Assembly: GCA_945895265.1 (NCBI GenBank)
Contig: CAMDEF010000005.1
Span: 87,112 to 151,111, forward strand
Direction: 5' to 3'
Length of the DNA stretch: 64,000 nucleotides
Source of the DNA: Bordetella parapertussis
Lineage (GTDB): Bacteria > Pseudomonadota > Gammaproteobacteria > Burkholderiales > Burkholderiaceae_B
Part shown: piece after piece, positions 48,521 through 58,031 of the stretch
Layout of the letters: each line of letters starts with the position of its first letter
Numbering within the stretch: the stretch's first letter is position 1
Notes under the pieces: model-generated
Seen by the model: the letters and a program-made list of their open reading frames with translations, nothing else
Told to the model about the DNA's origin: nothing
Databases searched by the model: none
Program-made: the position numbers and the translations under genes

Positions 48521-48961
48521 TTAGCCTATGTTCGTATCTTTACCAGCATCGATCAGTCGATCTACATCGGCAAACAATTTTTCTGCAAGTAGCCTTAGCT
48601 CAGCAATCGCTGACTCTTCGATTTCAAGAAAGCCCTCATATTCAGCCAAATTGCGTTTCTGATGTGCAGCGTCGAGCACTCGCCACTGGCTGGCGGGCCA
48701 CGCTAGCGTGTGGCCAAGAGACTGAAAAACAATGTAGCGATTTTCACTGCGATAGCCGTGCCATCGAAGTGCTGCAAGTGCGGCTCCATGTATTGCGTTA
48801 TAGACACTAGTGAAGCGCCCTTCTTAAGACACTTGCGGATAGCTCGAGTCTGCAAGACGCTTGCGCGCCATCACTAACATGCGGTTAATTTCCGCACGGT
48901 TCATTGGTTCAGCTTTTATCTTACCTATTTTGGCAAGATTACTGAGCGCTTCTAAAGTCAT
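48521..48961 (-). pseudogene. HEPN-domain protein with an in-frame nonsense codon
   Basis: Reading from ATG 48961, 45 codons (MTLEALSNLAKIGKIKAEPMNRAEINRM...) end in TAA at 48826-48824. The same frame then continues uninterrupted for ~100 codons: EGRFTSVYNAIHGAALAALRWHGYRSENRYIVFQSLGHTLAW... to TAA at 48521. The YNAIHxAALAALRxxGYR helix pair is typical of HEPN proteins. In relatives the position of the stop is usually Leu (SLEGRF), so a single TTA-to-TAA change explains it. It overlaps the nucleotidyltransferase by 23 bases, as in two-gene HEPN/NTase modules. The ~250-base spacer 48266-48520 holds repeat copy B. Confidence 0.75.
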
Positions 48962-49535
48962 CCATATTTCCAAACAGTTGAATAATGGGTTGGCTCAGCA
49001 CTTTGTTCACAAAGGAGTCTGTATCACTTAATCTTTTTTTGAATTCGCCAACCGTATAACAGGTTGGGTTAACTTTACGGCATAGCATTTCTTCTACCGG
49101 TAATAATTGCTCTAAGACTTCGCCGAGCGTTAAATCGCTGCCGATCATCATGATATCAATGTCGCTTTCAGCATGATCTGATTGCTTTGCGACAGAGCCA
49201 TAAAGAAAGGCGACTTCGATTTTTCGTTTGATTGGTAGCAAGGCTTCGGTGAGCAGCGCGGCCGCACCCATGATTTTGCGCGTCAAGTCGCTTAACTCTT
49301 TAAACAAGGGGCTTTGACGATTAGCAGATATTTGTCGTTGATTGCCTTTCAACGTTGAGTTTGCAAGACCGGCGACCACCAGCCTGTTGATCTCTCGCTG
49401 AAGAGACGCGCTACCCAAACCCGTTAGACGGCGCAATTCGCTCAAATGATAAGAGCGTTCGGGTTGACCAAAAATCCAAAGATAAACTTTGGCTTGGCTA
49501 TCCGTAAAAACTGCATCTTTTAATGACATAGCCAA
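48939..49535 (-). CDS. Winged-helix/nucleotidyltransferase protein (HEPN partner)
   Basis: 198 residues. N-terminal winged helix (AKVYLWIFGQPERSYHLSELRRLTGLGSASLQREINRLVVAGLANS, residues ~15-62), then a minimal nucleotidyltransferase with the catalytic signature FLYGSVAKQSDHAESDIDIMMIG (GSx9-10DxD). Relatives of the MNT class modify HEPN RNases by AMP addition or act as their antitoxins. Here the partner is broken. The winged helix may give autoregulation. A dispersed repeat fragment lies upstream. Confidence 0.85.
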   Translation of the reverse strand: MAMSLKDAVFTDSQAKVYLWIFGQPERSYHLSELRRLTGLGSASLQREINRLVVAGLANSTLKGNQRQISANRQSPLFKELSDLTRKIMGAAALLTEALLPIKRKIEVAFLYGSVAKQSDHAESDIDIMMIGSDLTLGEVLEQLLPVEEMLCRKVNPTCYTVGEFKKRLSDTDSFVNKVLSQPIIQLFGNMDDFRSAQ

Positions 49536-49825: not shown

Positions 49826-52135
49826 ATGCTGAAAAATATTAACGACCTGAACCCCCTAGAGTCTTTGTATTCGAGTGTGGAAAAGGTCATTCAGACTTCA
49901 CAAGAAATGAGCAGAAGCCATAGTGAAGCTGTGCGTACAGTATCTGAATTGTCGACGATGCACCTTCAGAAACTGACACGAACAGTGCAGTCGGACACCA
50001 AGAAAATAGAAGGGCTGCTGTCCGATTTCACGCGGGAGGCGACCAAGGTCTCGCAGGCAGCGACGCCTAATGACTGGTTGAAGATGTATGGCGATTTTAT
50101 GAAAGACGCCGTGCAGCGCCAGGCGCTGATGTTCAACGTCCTGCGTCAGCGCGGCAACGTCTACACCGCACATCTTGACGTTGGCATGCCGCCAGTACTT
50201 GACTACCAATACGAAGTGGTCGTTGACGGTAAAGATTTGGTTCGACCAGTGAATTATCTGCTGCTCAAACTGACGCCGCCGCAGGGGGTTGTAATTAATC
50301 CTGAACGTGCGCCGGTACTGATCATTGATCCGCGAGCCGGACACGGCGCGGGCATTGGCGGCTTTAAACAGGATAGTCAGGTCGGTGACGCGTTTGCAGA
50401 TGGCCATCCGGTCTACTTCGTCGCTTTTCGCCAAATGCCTGAACCAGCTCAGACAATCGCTGATGTGCGTGATGCTGAGATTCACTTTTTGCGCCTGATC
50501 GCGCAAGCGCATCCACAAGCCCCCAAGCCCATCTTGATGGGTAATTGCCAGGGTGGCTGGGCCGCCATGCTGGTTGCAGCAAAAGCGCCTGAACTGGTTG
50601 GCCCGATTGTTCTAAACGGCTCACCCATGTCGTACTGGGCGGGCAACGTCGGCGAGAATCCAATGCGCTACACCGGCGGTCTGGTCGGTGGTGCAACACC
50701 AGCCCTGCTGATGTCTGATCTTGGACATGGCTTGTTCGATGGCGTGGCACTGGTCGAGAATTTCGAATCACTGAACCCCGCCAACACTTACTTCAAGAAA
50801 TACTACAACCTATATTCGAACATTGATGCTGAGGCACAACGCTTTATCGATTTTGAACGCTGGTGGGGCGGTTACTGCTTCATGACTGAAGCTGAAATAC
50901 GCTGGATTGTTGAGAACCTTTTTGTTGGTAACAAACTGGCAGCCGGTGAGGCTGTTCTGAACGGTGAGCGCGTTGATCTGCGTCAGATTCAGTCCCCGAT
51001 CATTGTGTTCGCCTCGCATGGCGACAACATCACGCCGCCGCCGCAAGCGTTAAACTGGATCGCTGACCTGTATTCAACAGCCGACGAAATTAAAGCGCGC
51101 GGTCAGCGCATTGTTTACATGTTGCACGATACGATCGGCCATCTTGGCATTTTTGTTTCAGCCAAAATCGCCGGGCGCGAACACGAAGCCATCACAGATA
51201 CCATTCGCGCGATCGAAGCGATGGCGCCTGGCCTCTACGAGATGAAGCTCGAAGACGCTGCGGACAGGCTGCACATCCGGTTCGAACCCAGAACCATCGA
51301 CGATATTTTGCATTTTGATGTCACGCGTGACGAAGAAGTTTTGTTTTCTGAAGTCAGACGCATGTCAGAGGTTCATACCGAGGCCTACGAGCGTGCCGTG
51401 CGGCCCGTGCTCAAGCACGTGGTCACCAAACAGTCGGCCGAACTGCTGCGTAACTTGCACCCGCTGCGTACCCAGCGCCTCGTATTCTCGGACAAGAATC
51501 CAATCATGTCGCACTTAGATCCCGTGGCGAATAAGCTGGCTCAGGAGCGGGTCAACGTTGCCGATAACAACCCGTTTTTGATGGCTCAGCAAATTTGTGC
51601 AGGAATCATTGAGATGCAACTCAATCTGTACAGAGACTTGCGCGATGCCGCCGCTGAGAACAGCTTTTTCGCGATCTACACTTCGCCGCTCACCAAAGCC
51701 ATGTTCCCACCAGTTGCCAACGAGCATCCTTCAAACGTTATGGGCGATGTGACAAAAATGCCTGAAATCGCTAAGGCGCTGGCCGACATTGAGCTGGGTG
51801 GTCTGGCCGAAGCCACGGTGCGGATGTTGCACCTGCTGACTAAAGCCCGCGGATACGTGCGCAGAACACGACTCGAACGCGAACTGCTTGCCTTGAAAAA
51901 AACTGATTTGTTCCCTGAACTGAATGAAGATAGCATCACCAAACTTCTACATATTCAGTCATTGATTGTGGATTTTGCACCCAAACAGGCGATCTCCACA
52001 CTCACAGTTCTTCTCAGTACTCCTGAACTGAAAAAAGCCGCCCTTCAGCTGGTCATGGATATTGCGGGACCAAGAGAAACTATGCACCCGGCCGCGCTCA
52101 AACAATTTGAAGAGTTCGAGGGACTCCTGTCATGA
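49826..52135 (+). CDS. DUF3141 protein: phasin-like N-terminus plus PhaC-like alpha/beta-hydrolase
   Basis: 769 residues from ATG 49826 (GGAG upstream). Residues ~10-110 are helical and phasin-like (SLYSSVEKVIQTSQEMSRSHSEAV...LTRTVQSDTKKIEGLLSDFTREATKV). Residues ~140-445 form an alpha/beta-hydrolase with Cys241 in MGNCQGGWAAM, the G-x-C-x-G-G box of polyhydroxyalkanoate synthases, Asp400 in ASHGDNITPP and His439 in IGHLG. Residues ~450-769 are helical, of unknown fold. The family function is not established. It overlaps the MaoC-Pta gene by four bases. I infer an acyl-transfer or hydrolysis role on hydroxyacyl thioesters. Confidence 0.9.
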   Translation: MLKNINDLNPLESLYSSVEKVIQTSQEMSRSHSEAVRTVSELSTMHLQKLTRTVQSDTKKIEGLLSDFTREATKVSQAATPNDWLKMYGDFMKDAVQRQALMFNVLRQRGNVYTAHLDVGMPPVLDYQYEVVVDGKDLVRPVNYLLLKLTPPQGVVINPERAPVLIIDPRAGHGAGIGGFKQDSQVGDAFADGHPVYFVAFRQMPEPAQTIADVRDAEIHFLRLIAQAHPQAPKPILMGNCQGGWAAMLVAAKAPELVGPIVLNGSPMSYWAGNVGENPMRYTGGLVGGATPALLMSDLGHGLFDGVALVENFESLNPANTYFKKYYNLYSNIDAEAQRFIDFERWWGGYCFMTEAEIRWIVENLFVGNKLAAGEAVLNGERVDLRQIQSPIIVFASHGDNITPPPQALNWIADLYSTADEIKARGQRIVYMLHDTIGHLGIFVSAKIAGREHEAITDTIRAIEAMAPGLYEMKLEDAADRLHIRFEPRTIDDILHFDVTRDEEVLFSEVRRMSEVHTEAYERAVRPVLKHVVTKQSAELLRNLHPLRTQRLVFSDKNPIMSHLDPVANKLAQERVNVADNNPFLMAQQICAGIIEMQLNLYRDLRDAAAENSFFAIYTSPLTKAMFPPVANEHPSNVMGDVTKMPEIAKALADIELGGLAEATVRMLHLLTKARGYVRRTRLERELLALKKTDLFPELNEDSITKLLHIQSLIVDFAPKQAISTLTVLLSTPELKKAALQLVMDIAGPRETMHPAALKQFEEFEGLLS

Positions 52136-53553
52136 ATGGCCTAAACGACTTGAATAACCGGGTTTGGGCTGAATTAACGGTCGGTGACGAGGCGTCGATC
52201 GAACGCACCGTCACCTCTCGGGAGCTGTACCTGTTTGCCCATGCCTCGGGCAACCTCAATCCGATGCATATGCCGCATTTGCATGTGGCTGACCCCGACA
52301 ACTCGATGGTGGTCGCACCTTCGATGTGGCTGGGCGCGCTGATCTCTAGCGCACTGGGCAACATCCTGCCCGGGCCGGGTACGTCGTACCGCAAGCAAAC
52401 CCTCGACTTTGTTGATCGCGCTAAGCTCGGCGATGTATTGACGATCAAGATCAAACTGGTTGAAAAGCAAGTCAGCCCAGTCGTTGTATTTTCAACCGAG
52501 GTGCGTGATGCGAGCGGTCGTTTGATCGCCGCTGGTTTCGCCGAGGTTAACGCACCACTTGAGAAGAAATCTCTCGCTCAGGACGCGTTGCCAGCCCTAC
52601 TTCTTTCTGAGCATAACCATTTCGATCAGCTGATCGTCGCCGCGCAAAAGTGCGCCCCGATGCCCACCGCAGTGGTATGCCCCGATGATTCAAAGTCTCT
52701 GGGTGGTGCCTTGATGGCGATGCGCGCCCAGTTAATCGTACCCTTATTGATTGGTTCAAGATCAGCGATTCAACGGGCCGCGGATGAAGCCAATGAAGAC
52801 ATCGCGGATATCGAACTAATCGATATTGCCGATCACCGTCAGGCGGCCGCCAAAGCCGTCGAGTTGGCCAATCAGCACAAAGTGCGTGCGATCATGAAAG
52901 GTAACGTGCATTCAGACGAAATTCTGGCTCAGGTTGTGAAGAAAGAAGGTGGCTTGCGTGGTTCACGACGCATTTCGCATGTTTTCGTCTTGAACGTACC
53001 TACTCTCAGCTACCCCCTGTTTATTAGTGATGCGGCGATCAACATCGCCCCTGATCTGGCCACAAAGGTTGACATCACACAAAACGCCATCGACCTCGCG
53101 CGCGCCTGCGGGATTGAGGTGCCTCACGTTGCGATCCTGTCAGCCGTCGAGACCGTCAATGCAAGTATCCCTTCTTCGATGGATGCTGCAATTCTGGCCA
53201 AAATGGCGGATCGTGGGCAAATTCACGGCGGCCTCGTCGATGGTCCGCTGGCAATGGACAATGCGATTGATATGGGTGCGGCCCAGACAAAGCATCTGAC
53301 TTCGCCCGTGGCCGGTCGTGCTCAGGTGCTGATCGTTCCAAATCTTGAGGCTGGCAATATGCTTGCCAAGCAACTGACGTTTATTTCGCATGCTCAGCCT
53401 GCGGGTCTGGTGTTAGGCGCCAAGATACCGGTCATGCTGACCAGTCGTGCTGACAGCGCTGAGGCCAGAATGGCTTCTTGCGCGCTGGCGCAGCTGTACG
53501 ACGCCTATTGCCAAAATGGCCAATCGGTCTTGACTCACGAAAGCATAAGGTAG
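52132..53553 (+). CDS. Bifunctional MaoC-like hydratase/phosphate acyltransferase
   Basis: 473 residues. Residues ~1-145 are a hotdog MaoC module (FAHASGNLNPMHMP), but the catalytic Asp of SGDxNPxH is Asn41 while His46 is kept. Residues ~160-473 are a phosphate acetyl/butyryltransferase (Pta/Ptb) domain with PTAVVCPDDSKSLGGALMA, KGNVHSDEILAQVVKKEGGLR, SDAAINIAPDL and GGLVDGPLAMDNA(I). It would convert acyl-CoA and phosphate to acyl phosphate and CoA. The start overlaps the upstream gene (ATGA), and acetate kinase follows six bases on. Confidence 0.9.
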   Translation: MNGLNDLNNRVWAELTVGDEASIERTVTSRELYLFAHASGNLNPMHMPHLHVADPDNSMVVAPSMWLGALISSALGNILPGPGTSYRKQTLDFVDRAKLGDVLTIKIKLVEKQVSPVVVFSTEVRDASGRLIAAGFAEVNAPLEKKSLAQDALPALLLSEHNHFDQLIVAAQKCAPMPTAVVCPDDSKSLGGALMAMRAQLIVPLLIGSRSAIQRAADEANEDIADIELIDIADHRQAAAKAVELANQHKVRAIMKGNVHSDEILAQVVKKEGGLRGSRRISHVFVLNVPTLSYPLFISDAAINIAPDLATKVDITQNAIDLARACGIEVPHVAILSAVETVNASIPSSMDAAILAKMADRGQIHGGLVDGPLAMDNAIDMGAAQTKHLTSPVAGRAQVLIVPNLEAGNMLAKQLTFISHAQPAGLVLGAKIPVMLTSRADSAEARMASCALAQLYDAYCQNGQSVLTHESIR

Positions 53554-53559
53554 ACCTTC

Positions 53560-54777
53560 ATGGTAACTAGCATGACCAACCCGCAGCCCGCACTCCTAGT
53601 TATTAATGCAGGATCTTCGTCGATCAAGTTTGCGCTCTTTGACGATGAAACTCTTGCAGAGTTAGTAAGGGGACAAATAGACGGCATCAGCTCAGCGGCG
53701 GCTTTTCGCGCCAAGAGCCCCGATCGTACAATTGACGAGCAGTTGCAATGGCCGCTTGAGGTCGCGCCTAAAGATCACAGTGCTGCGCTGCAATTCTTGA
53801 TTGAGTGGCTCGGGCAAACGCTAGTTGGCGTGCAAGTCGCTGCAGTAGGCCACCGTGTAGTGCACGGCGGGTCGCATTACACCGAGCCCGTTGTCATTAA
53901 CGAGGCCGTGTTGCATGAACTTGAATCGATCTTTGCCTTGGCCCCCTTACACGAACCCCATAACATTGCCGGCATCAAGGGCGCGCGCGCCGCCTTCGGT
54001 AACATTACACAGGTTGCCTGCTTCGACACAGCGTTTCATCGCACCCAGTCCTTTATCAACGACACGTATGCCCTGCCACGCAGTCTTTATCTTGAAGGGG
54101 TCAGGCGCTACGGTTTTCATGGACTGTCGTATGAGTTCATAGCGGGATATCTGAAAGAGAATTTTCCAGAAAGCTTCAACGGAAAGTGCATCATTGCCCA
54201 TCTGGGTAATGGCGCCTCGATTTGTGCGATCGAGAACGGTCAAGCAGCCTCGTCGACCATGGGTTTCAGCCCTCTTGAAGGTTTACCTATGGGTACGCGT
54301 TCAGGCAGAATCGATCCAGGCGTCTTGTTGTACCTGATGCAGCACAAGCGATGGGACGTGCACCAGATCTCGGACTTGCTTTACAAACAGTCGGGTCTCA
54401 AGGGACTCTCGGGCGGACTCTCGAACGATATGCGTACGCTAGAAGCCTCAGACAGCACTGAGGCAACAGAGGCCATCGAGTACTTCGTTCAACACGTGCA
54501 ACAAGAGATCGCAAGCCTTGCTGCCATCATGCGCGGCGTCAACACCTTGGTTTTTACCGGTGGGATTGGTGAGAATTCAGTCTTGATCCGCAAACGCGTC
54601 ATGCAAGGACTCGAGTGGTTGGGTCTGCACGTTGACGAGACGCAAAACGCCTCTGGCGCCACGGTGCTGTCTCAGGCGCAATCCAACATTCTTTGTTTGC
54701 GTATTCCAACCAACGAAGAGGGCATGATCGCCCAGCACACTAAAAAACTGGCTACAACAGAACGCGGTCGCCACTGA
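53560..54777 (+). CDS. ackA: Acetate kinase (carboxylate kinase)
   Basis: 405 residues. LLVINAGSSSIKFALFD, GHRVVHGGSHYTEPV (active Arg and His), DTAFHRT, RRYGFHGLSYEFIA, HLGNGAS(I)CAI, MGFSPLEGLPMGTRSGRIDPGV and FTGGIGENS are all present. The enzyme makes ATP from acyl phosphate and ADP. Together with the Pta domain it gives substrate-level phosphorylation from acyl-CoA. ATG 53560 has AAGG upstream; 53572 is an alternative start. Confidence 0.96.
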   Translation: MVTSMTNPQPALLVINAGSSSIKFALFDDETLAELVRGQIDGISSAAAFRAKSPDRTIDEQLQWPLEVAPKDHSAALQFLIEWLGQTLVGVQVAAVGHRVVHGGSHYTEPVVINEAVLHELESIFALAPLHEPHNIAGIKGARAAFGNITQVACFDTAFHRTQSFINDTYALPRSLYLEGVRRYGFHGLSYEFIAGYLKENFPESFNGKCIIAHLGNGASICAIENGQAASSTMGFSPLEGLPMGTRSGRIDPGVLLYLMQHKRWDVHQISDLLYKQSGLKGLSGGLSNDMRTLEASDSTEATEAIEYFVQHVQQEIASLAAIMRGVNTLVFTGGIGENSVLIRKRVMQGLEWLGLHVDETQNASGATVLSQAQSNILCLRIPTNEEGMIAQHTKKLATTERGRH

Positions 54778-54813
54778 TACCTTTTTTAGAACTACCTTTC
54801 AAAGGCTGCTCAA

Positions 54814-55665
54814 ATGAAAATTCAATCAATTGGCATCATTGGTGCCGGTATTATGGGTAACGGGATTGCGCAGATCTGCGCAAGTCATGGTCTGCAGGTC
54901 ACGATGATCGATATTGATCAGACGGCGATCACCCGCGGCACCAACAACATCACCACAAATCTTGAGCGTTTGGTTAAAAAAGAAACCATCACGCGTGAAG
55001 CGCTTGAGCAAACCTTGAAAAGAGTGCATGGCAGCACTGATTACCAAAGTTTGATAGGCCTTGACTTCATAATCGAAGCCGCGACTGAAAATCAGGGATT
55101 GAAAGAGAAGATTCTTAGGCAAATCGACACCATCGTACCTGGCGAAACTATGATTGCCACCAATACTTCATCCCTTTCGATCACCAAACTCGCGGCTTTG
55201 AACTCACGACCCGAACGCTTTATCGGCATGCACTTTTTTAATCCTGTGCCCGTAATGAGCTTGGTCGAAGTGATTCGGGGTCTGCAGACCAACGATGAAA
55301 CCCATCAGGCCGTACATGCCTTTGCGGTCGAAATTGGTAAATACCCGATCACGGTAAAGAACGCTCCGGGCTTCGTGGTCAACCGTATTTTGTTACCAAT
55401 GATCAATGAGGCGTTTTTTGTTTTGAGTGAAGGTCTGGCGACCGCCCAAGATATTGACATTGGCATGAAACTTGGTTGCAATCAGCCAATTGGTCCGCTC
55501 GCACTGGCAGATCTGATCGGGCTCGATACTTGCCTCGCGATCATGGACGTTTATTTTAATAACTTCTGTGATTCAAAATATCGTCCAGCTCCATTGCTAC
55601 GCGAGATGGTCGCCGCAGGTTTTCTGGGTCGCAAAACGGGTCGCGGTGTTTTCAACTACGCTTAA
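54814..55665 (+). CDS. hbd: 3-Hydroxybutyryl-CoA dehydrogenase
   Basis: 283 residues, standard single-domain length. NAD-binding IGIIGAGIMGNGIAQICASHGLQVTMIDID, then DFIIEAATENQGLKEKI, TNTSSLSITKLA, HFFNPVPVMSLVEVI (catalytic His) and NAPGFVVNRILLPMINEAFF. It interconverts 3-hydroxybutyryl-CoA and acetoacetyl-CoA. Being last in the four-gene cluster, it links the module to the butyrate/PHB acyl-CoA pool. The downstream spacer 55666-55995 contains dispersed repeat copy C and shows no gene. Confidence 0.94.
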   Translation: MKIQSIGIIGAGIMGNGIAQICASHGLQVTMIDIDQTAITRGTNNITTNLERLVKKETITREALEQTLKRVHGSTDYQSLIGLDFIIEAATENQGLKEKILRQIDTIVPGETMIATNTSSLSITKLAALNSRPERFIGMHFFNPVPVMSLVEVIRGLQTNDETHQAVHAFAVEIGKYPITVKNAPGFVVNRILLPMINEAFFVLSEGLATAQDIDIGMKLGCNQPIGPLALADLIGLDTCLAIMDVYFNNFCDSKYRPAPLLREMVAAGFLGRKTGRGVFNYA

Positions 55666-57578: not shown

Positions 57579-58031
57579 ATGTATAAAAATATTTTGCTTG
57601 CCTACGACGGTTCTGACCTTGATCAACAAGCCTTAATTGGATGTAAAGATCTTACGAACTGGCCATCTGCACAAATCACCTTACTTACCGTCCTTCCAAA
57701 TTTCTATACATCCATGGGAATGGAAGGTGCCTTTGTGGGTGATGACCGTGCGCATGATCATCAGGTGCAAAATAAAATCCTCAATAGTGGCGTGCAGTCG
57801 CTTAAAGAAGCTGGGTATAACGCTCAAGGCGTTGCGCTGACAGGCGACCCAGCGATAGAAATTGCAAACTACGCCATGCAACAACACTGTGACCTGATTA
57901 TCGTTGCTCATAAACACACGGCAAATTGGGCTGCGCGCTGGTGGGGCAGATTCAAATCTAAAGCCCTGATCGAAATCGCACACTGCAGCGTACTGATTGT
58001 CATTTTAAATGAGTCAGTCACCGACTCTTAG
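57579..58031 (+). CDS. Universal stress protein (UspA family)
   Basis: 150 residues from ATG 57579, supported by GGAGG five bases upstream; the longer frame from 57555 is not. YKNILLAYDGSDLDQQAL and the C-terminal region IIVAHKHTANWAARWWGRFKSKALIEIAHCSVLIV give the single-domain Usp fold. The usual ATP-binding GxxGx9GSxS stretch is altered here (HKHTANWAARWWGRFKSKAL), so nucleotide binding is doubtful. Stands alone; a truncated gene lies downstream on the other strand. Confidence 0.87.
   Translation: MYKNILLAYDGSDLDQQALIGCKDLTNWPSAQITLLTVLPNFYTSMGMEGAFVGDDRAHDHQVQNKILNSGVQSLKEAGYNAQGVALTGDPAIEIANYAMQQHCDLIIVAHKHTANWAARWWGRFKSKALIEIAHCSVLIVILNESVTDS

Follow-up and report, generated by a model that had tools for sequence, protein, structure and literature searches.

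Organization of the operon

The sequence examined is a 64,000-nucleotide stretch of DNA from Bordetella parapertussis (contig CAMDEF010000005.1), referred to below as the window. Between positions 49826 and 55665, four genes are open on the plus strand and encode a DUF3141 (PF11339) protein, a MaoC-Pta fusion, an acetate kinase and a 3-hydroxybutyryl-CoA dehydrogenase (Hbd). The first gene (49826–52135; 769 amino acids, aa) is supported as a candidate PhaC-like Cys acyltransferase by its open reading frame (ORF), Pfam match, alignments and predicted fold. The fusion (52132–53553, 473 aa), the acetate/propionate family kinase AckA (53560–54777, 405 aa) and Hbd (54814–55665, 283 aa) are each identified from their ORF and from Pfam and NCBIfam matches. 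AckA scores 383 bits with the Pfam Acetate_kinase family (cut-off 22) and 378.4 bits with TIGR00016 (cut-off 293.4). Hbd scores 213 bits with 3HCDH_N (cut-off 22), 110 bits with 3HCDH (cut-off 22.1) and 457.3 bits with NCBIfam PRK05808 (cut-off 408).

The DUF3141 stop and the fusion start share four bases (ATGA). The gaps between the fusion and AckA (53554–53559) and between AckA and Hbd (54778–54813) are short, so the four genes are likely to be carried on a single transcript. This arrangement bears out an earlier note on this DNA, which described four genes with a four-base overlap and ackA and hbd close behind. The DUF3141 ATG at 49826 is preceded by GGAG and gives the 769-aa protein. The longer TTG start (49784) from the program's ORF list appears less likely.

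Fold and active site of the DUF3141 protein

The DUF3141 protein is a full member of PF11339 (762.2 bits; gathering cut-off 29.7). The predicted model is a PhaC-type alpha/beta hydrolase whose best fold match is to the polyhydroxyalkanoate (PHA) synthases. According to the predicted structure and profile comparison, this core spans residues 125 to 470 approximately (50198–51235). It contains the PHA-synthase-type box GNCQGGW with Cys241 (codon 50546–50548), followed by Asp400 (51023–51025) and His439 (51140–51142). The box and the three residues are present as the earlier note had numbered them, and in the profile comparison their columns align with the PhaC triad. The conservation check proposed there gives a uniform result. 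All three residues are invariant in 23/23 sequences of an alignment that includes 22 loci from a hidden Markov model search and is free of pattern-selection bias. They are also invariant in 91/91 sequences of a larger alignment, where the conservation of Asp400 is partly built in because it belongs to one of the two patterns with which the named-record scan selected loci.

Although DUF3141 has the triad of PhaC, it is formally not a PhaC by its profile scores. There is no Pfam match to PhaC_N at E 1e-3, and the NCBIfam PhaC models score far under their cut-offs (TIGR01836, 41.4 vs 365.3 bits; TIGR01838, 29.1 vs 622.65 bits). The intracellular poly(3-hydroxybutyrate) (PHB) depolymerase PhaZ (PF06850) likewise gives no Pfam match at 1e-3, and its hhalign probability is 1.7.

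These scores bear on the main alternative to the role proposed below, namely that DUF3141 represents an additional PHA synthase class. It would then polymerise or cap chains, with AckA and Pta running in reverse to form acyl-CoA from acids and ATP. Both enzymes are reversible, and the closest profile to DUF3141 is that of class III PhaC. In passages of two papers, DUF3141 is termed a PHB polymerase or the domain is said to occur in class III synthase as well (PMC11878206, PMC8601165). The absence of PhaC_N and the low PhaC scores count against a synthase, as do results given in the following sections, and this alternative is considered unlikely.

The core is flanked by helical regions. At the N-terminus (residues 10–118; 49853–50179), segments 10–78 and 81–118 are predicted as two long helices. 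The earlier description of a phasin-like helical start holds for the helices; the match to Phasin_2 (PF09361) is below the Pfam cut-off (E 0.0014; 19.3 vs 24.9 bits). The C-terminal helical region comprises residues 492–769 (51299–52132), and its end, the 113 residues from 51794 onwards, is similar to 2h5n. NCBI gives the name TerB family to two of the 120 Bradyrhizobium-type relatives listed. Several DUF3141 members have basic Lys/Ala/Pro tails, and the tail of one (L044) has an HhH match under the cut-off. The tails, the HhH match and the resemblance to 2h5n would suit a protein with a mainly structural or regulatory role on the granule or the nucleoid, while Pta-AckA would control the level of acyl phosphate. 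This is very improbable: the fully conserved triad speaks for catalysis, and the window protein has no basic tail.

Co-occurrence with PHB genes

In 299 proteobacterial genomes drawn evenly, DUF3141 scores over the Pfam cut-off in 42, most of them through short matches such as PhaC gives. A strong match, defined here as at least 480 bits, is found in 19 genomes, two of which (G188 and G254) have internal stops in the gene. PhaC_N is present at E<1e-40 in 121 of the 299 genomes, including each of the 19 strong-DUF3141 genomes (p 1.4e-8, for genomes that are not phylogenetically independent). PhaZ occurs in 17 of these 19. The earlier note called for a survey of the four genes with phaC and phaZ; for DUF3141, these counts place it in genomes with PHB genes. 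DUF3141 as a replacement for PhaC or PhaZ is rejected on the same counts. The presence of PhaC in every strong-DUF3141 genome also argues against a further synthase. Pta of this type is found in 16/19 of the strong-DUF3141 genomes (47/299 overall), and by its coordinates it adjoins DUF3141 in 13/19.

In the sample from the window's nearest genus, DUF3141 is present in 6 of 31 genomes, and one of the six (G310) has a partial gene with an internal stop. A seventh genome over the cut-off (G328) contains a PhaC-size frame. The window-type genomes G305, G308 and G317 also contain a phasin and a 544-aa frame with the weak DUF3141 match that is typical of PhaC elsewhere. No FabI over the cut-off of NCBIfam PRK07533 is found in these three genomes, which are 82–93 percent complete. 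This matches the window operon, which is without FabI.

Recurrence of the module

Neighbouring genes within 3.5 kb, backed by tblastn, were compared for the best 80 of 549 confirmed DUF3141 matches in named-genome records; loci cut by contig ends are included in the counts. The neighbours are Pta (48 loci), AckA (45), a FabI-type reductase (45) and Hbd-like genes (7). At least one of Pta, AckA and the FabI-type reductase is present at 59/80 loci. Chance does not account for the gene order, as Pta and AckA are also neighbours of DUF3141 in distant genomes. Hbd does not belong to the core set. A Hbd with at least 50 percent identity is found at five loci, one of which (L039) is near-identical, and the fourth position is usually taken elsewhere by a FabI-type enoyl reductase. 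Of 40 reductase neighbours scanned, 39 match PRK07533 at E 1e-30, and 4/4 scanned singly are above its cut-off. These 40 are from the 48 members of cluster c2; the eight omitted are second short-chain dehydrogenase/reductase genes of a locus and distant, truncated or overlong calls. CoA-transferase subunits occur at 14 and 12 loci (clusters c4 and c5, respectively). One locus (L073) contains, in a row, FabI, DUF3141, the fusion, AckA, both CoA-transferase subunits and Hbd.

The order DUF3141-Pta-AckA-FabI is annotated in Sinorhizobium medicae pSymA and Eleftheria terrae and is found by tblastn in Cupriavidus necator N-1 pBB1. In Rhizobium etli p42d, DUF3141 is without Pta, AckA and FabI neighbours.

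The neighbours bear on whether DUF3141 could be a granule-bound hydrolase or thioesterase, with water as acceptor and free 3-hydroxybutyrate or oligomers as products. Pta-AckA would then serve separate acetyl-CoA overflow. An alpha/beta-hydrolase fold with a Cys triad would also suit an enzyme of the PhaZ type, and one DUF3141 protein is listed as a PHB depolymerase by annotation in a table of PMC8050969. Pta would receive no substrate from hydrolysis, although Pta or AckA lies close to DUF3141 at 50/80 loci, and the profile match to intracellular PhaZ is poor. A hydrolase is decidedly unlikely.

Several individual loci differ in composition. At L077 (5837–7789), the gene immediately upstream of DUF3141 encodes a full PhaC, the sole such case among the 80 loci. 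In Methylocapsa aurea (L068, 5249–12866), AckA and MaoC-Pta lie between two DUF3141 genes that are on opposite strands. In two Labrenzia loci (L048, 4738–6906; L050, 4651–6882), a catalase-peroxidase gene (KatG; scanned in L048 and assigned in L050 by the same cluster) directly precedes FabI and DUF3141. DUF3141 genes are also found on symbiotic plasmids and megaplasmids (L166, L169; 136 plasmid records). This location and the patchy presence in the window's nearest genus suggest horizontal transfer of DUF3141.

The MaoC-Pta fusion

The fusion matches NCBIfam PRK08190, bifunctional enoyl-CoA hydratase/phosphate acetyltransferase, with 612.7 bits (cut-off 282). Its phosphate acyltransferase (Ptb/Pta) domain (residues 159–461; 52606–53514) is identified by Pfam and NCBIfam and scores 134.8 bits with PTA_PTB (PF01515; cut-off 24). 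Its MaoC-like domain (residues 14–142; 52171–52557), identified by alignment, is under the Pfam cut-off (25.3 vs 27). The reference for this domain is 1IQ6, in which Asp31 and His36 are the catalytic residues of the (R)-specific enoyl-CoA hydratase (PhaJ/MaoC). In the window fusion, the catalytic Asp is not found and Asn41 (52252–52254) stands in its place. His46 is at the catalytic His, and APS is at HGM.

Among the 120 nearest fusion homologues, Asn41 and Pro63 are each present in 120/120 and His46 in only 79/120. A working hydratase in the fusion is not supported. Across 47 aligned rows (the window and 46 loci), position 41 is Asn in 26, Asp in 9, another residue in 4 and a gap in 8. Nineteen full fusions from the 299-genome sample were compared at this position by strong DUF3141 match. 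The 14 fusions in genomes without one have Asp in 12, Asn in one (L136) and another residue in one (L130); the five in genomes with one have Asn in three, Asp in one (L121, not adjacent to DUF3141) and another residue in one (L125). At three Bradyrhizobium loci and several others, the MaoC domain is absent from Pta. A working PhaJ hydratase step in DUF3141-linked fusions was considered and is unlikely, since the catalytic Asp is mostly lost. Because Asn replaces this Asp and some loci have a Pta without MaoC, hydration is probably not the role of the fusion in the window operon. That the altered motif is conserved suggests that the domain has kept a function in binding.

Regulation and granule proteins

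In Bradyrhizobium diazoefficiens, blr3456 heads the predicted operon blr3456-blr3459, with pta as blr3457 and ackA as blr3458. Under 0.5 percent oxygen, a phaR mutant has 7.2-fold more blr3456 RNA, and the protein is up by log2 7.2. The gene carries predicted PhaR motifs (all from passages of PMC10888616). Three Bradyrhizobium loci in the present comparison have the order DUF3141-Pta-AckA-FabI, and the protein of one (G036) is 100 percent identical to a B. daqingense protein; the other two have the same genus code as G036. From this gene order, blr3456 is inferred to be DUF3141, and blr3456-blr3459 is probably orthologous to the DUF3141 operon. In the same passages, the presumed operon is up in the phaR mutant like the phasin gene phaP1, which argues against a synthase, though it does not fix the direction of the reaction.

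In Cupriavidus necator H16, A0671 and B1632 are reportedly granule-located alpha/beta hydrolases with a PHB synthase/depolymerase signature, and their deletion is said to cause a mild mobilisation defect; both statements are attributed to work by Sznajder in 2015. A0671 and B1632 appear to be DUF3141 proteins. Their locus tags adjoin those of ackA2 (A0670) and of pta1 and ackA (B1631 and B1630), as given in passages of PMC9636797, which fits this identity. If so, granule location is already published.

In the literature searched, the passages that use the term DUF3141 assign it no tested reaction. None of the titles and abstract openings found describes the module, and PMC10888616 has the operon as a table row.

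Proposed function

The analysis shows an operon, a predicted PHA-synthase-type fold, a triad that aligns with that of PhaC, a recurring module and, in the genome sample, strong DUF3141 matches only where PhaC is present. These observations suggest that bacteria may draw energy from stored PHB through the DUF3141-Pta-AckA set. With about even confidence, DUF3141 is proposed to be a PHB-linked Cys acyltransferase with a PHA-synthase fold that, with Pta-AckA, provides energy-conserving PHB mobilisation. The PHB-module interpretation of the earlier note is partly supported: genome co-occurrence and the Bradyrhizobium phaR regulon favour the link to PHB, but a working MaoC hydratase and a phasin domain above the cut-off are not supported, and Hbd is outside the core set.

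The chemistry, substrate, direction and granule binding in this organism are the conjectural part of the proposal. The acyl group would probably be carried on Cys241, activated by His439 and Asp400. DUF3141 would move 3-hydroxybutyryl between the polyester and coenzyme A, most likely by way of a Cys-bound 3-hydroxybutyryl intermediate and then transfer to CoA. The phosphate acyltransferase would convert acyl-CoA to acyl phosphate, and the acyl kinase would yield the free acid and ATP. C4-CoA intermediates and reducing power may be shuffled by Hbd in the window and by the FabI-type reductase and CoA-transferase elsewhere.

A more specific form of this proposal is doubtful. DUF3141 would be a thiolytic PHB depolymerase (PHB:CoA 3-hydroxybutyryltransferase), DUF3141-Pta-AckA-FabI/Hbd a PHB fermentation pathway and MaoC a non-catalytic binding or docking domain. 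PHB would pass through C4-acyl-CoA to butyrate, 3-hydroxybutyrate or acetoacetate with formation of ATP, and the enoyl reductase would dispose of NADH.

Several observations weigh against energy-conserving mobilisation through DUF3141. Its nearest relatives are synthases rather than depolymerases, and the residue after the catalytic Asp is His in 8/8 aligned PhaC sequences and Asn in 90/91 DUF3141 sequences. The ordinary PhaZ in most strong-DUF3141 genomes (17/19) means that DUF3141 is not needed for PHB to be degradable. At 21/80 loci, Pta, AckA and the FabI-type reductase are all missing within 3.5 kb; 16 have nothing and five have only distant Hbd-like genes (28–32 percent identity, opposite strand). 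PhaC is in the fetched surroundings of DUF3141 at 1/80 loci only. Low-oxygen (FNR) control of the operon is rejected, as the upstream box test is negative. With a consensus FNR box, the mean best match in 76 upstream regions, including that of the window, is 6.87/10 (6.64 when shuffled), with four loci at 9. The motif TTGAN6TCAA has two sites in the window (1.6 expected), neither at the operon. In the passages of PMC10888616, PhaR binding at the blr3456 promoter is only predicted and the promoter is not in the legend of the electrophoretic mobility shift assay figure, and the granule proteins that the text names do not include Blr3456.

PHB is an important store of carbon in bacteria, and the module offers a concrete hypothesis for the large DUF3141 family. 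According to a review (PMC7147478), it is unclear whether PHB is mobilised hydrolytically or through energy-saving thiolysis. The recurrent pairing of a synthase-fold protein with ATP-forming enzymes in bacteria that carry PhaC, nodule symbionts among them, opens this question to direct test.

Flanking genes

Directly upstream of the operon, the window contains a gene for a Polbeta nucleotidyltransferase-like protein on the minus strand (48939–49535). Downstream, beyond two minus-strand ORFs, a universal stress protein gene (57579–58031) is on the same strand as the operon.

Comparison with known systems

The window fusion has its domain order and Pta domain in common with other PRK08190 bifunctional MaoC-Pta fusions. 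The DUF3141-linked fusions differ from these in having mostly Asn for Asp and AP for HG. The blr3456-blr3459 operon has pta and ackA as its second and third genes, as in the window operon. The Bradyrhizobium loci differ from the window operon in having a FabI-type fourth gene instead of Hbd and a Pta without the MaoC domain. In the literature, PF11339 proteins go under different names: depolymerase, polymerase or class III-like. Class III PhaC shares with DUF3141 the core fold, the GxCxGG box, the Cys-Asp-His order and a GHxGIFVS segment. Unlike class III PhaC, DUF3141 has long helical regions at both termini, no PhaC_N, an Asn beside the catalytic Asp and PhaC scores under the cut-offs.
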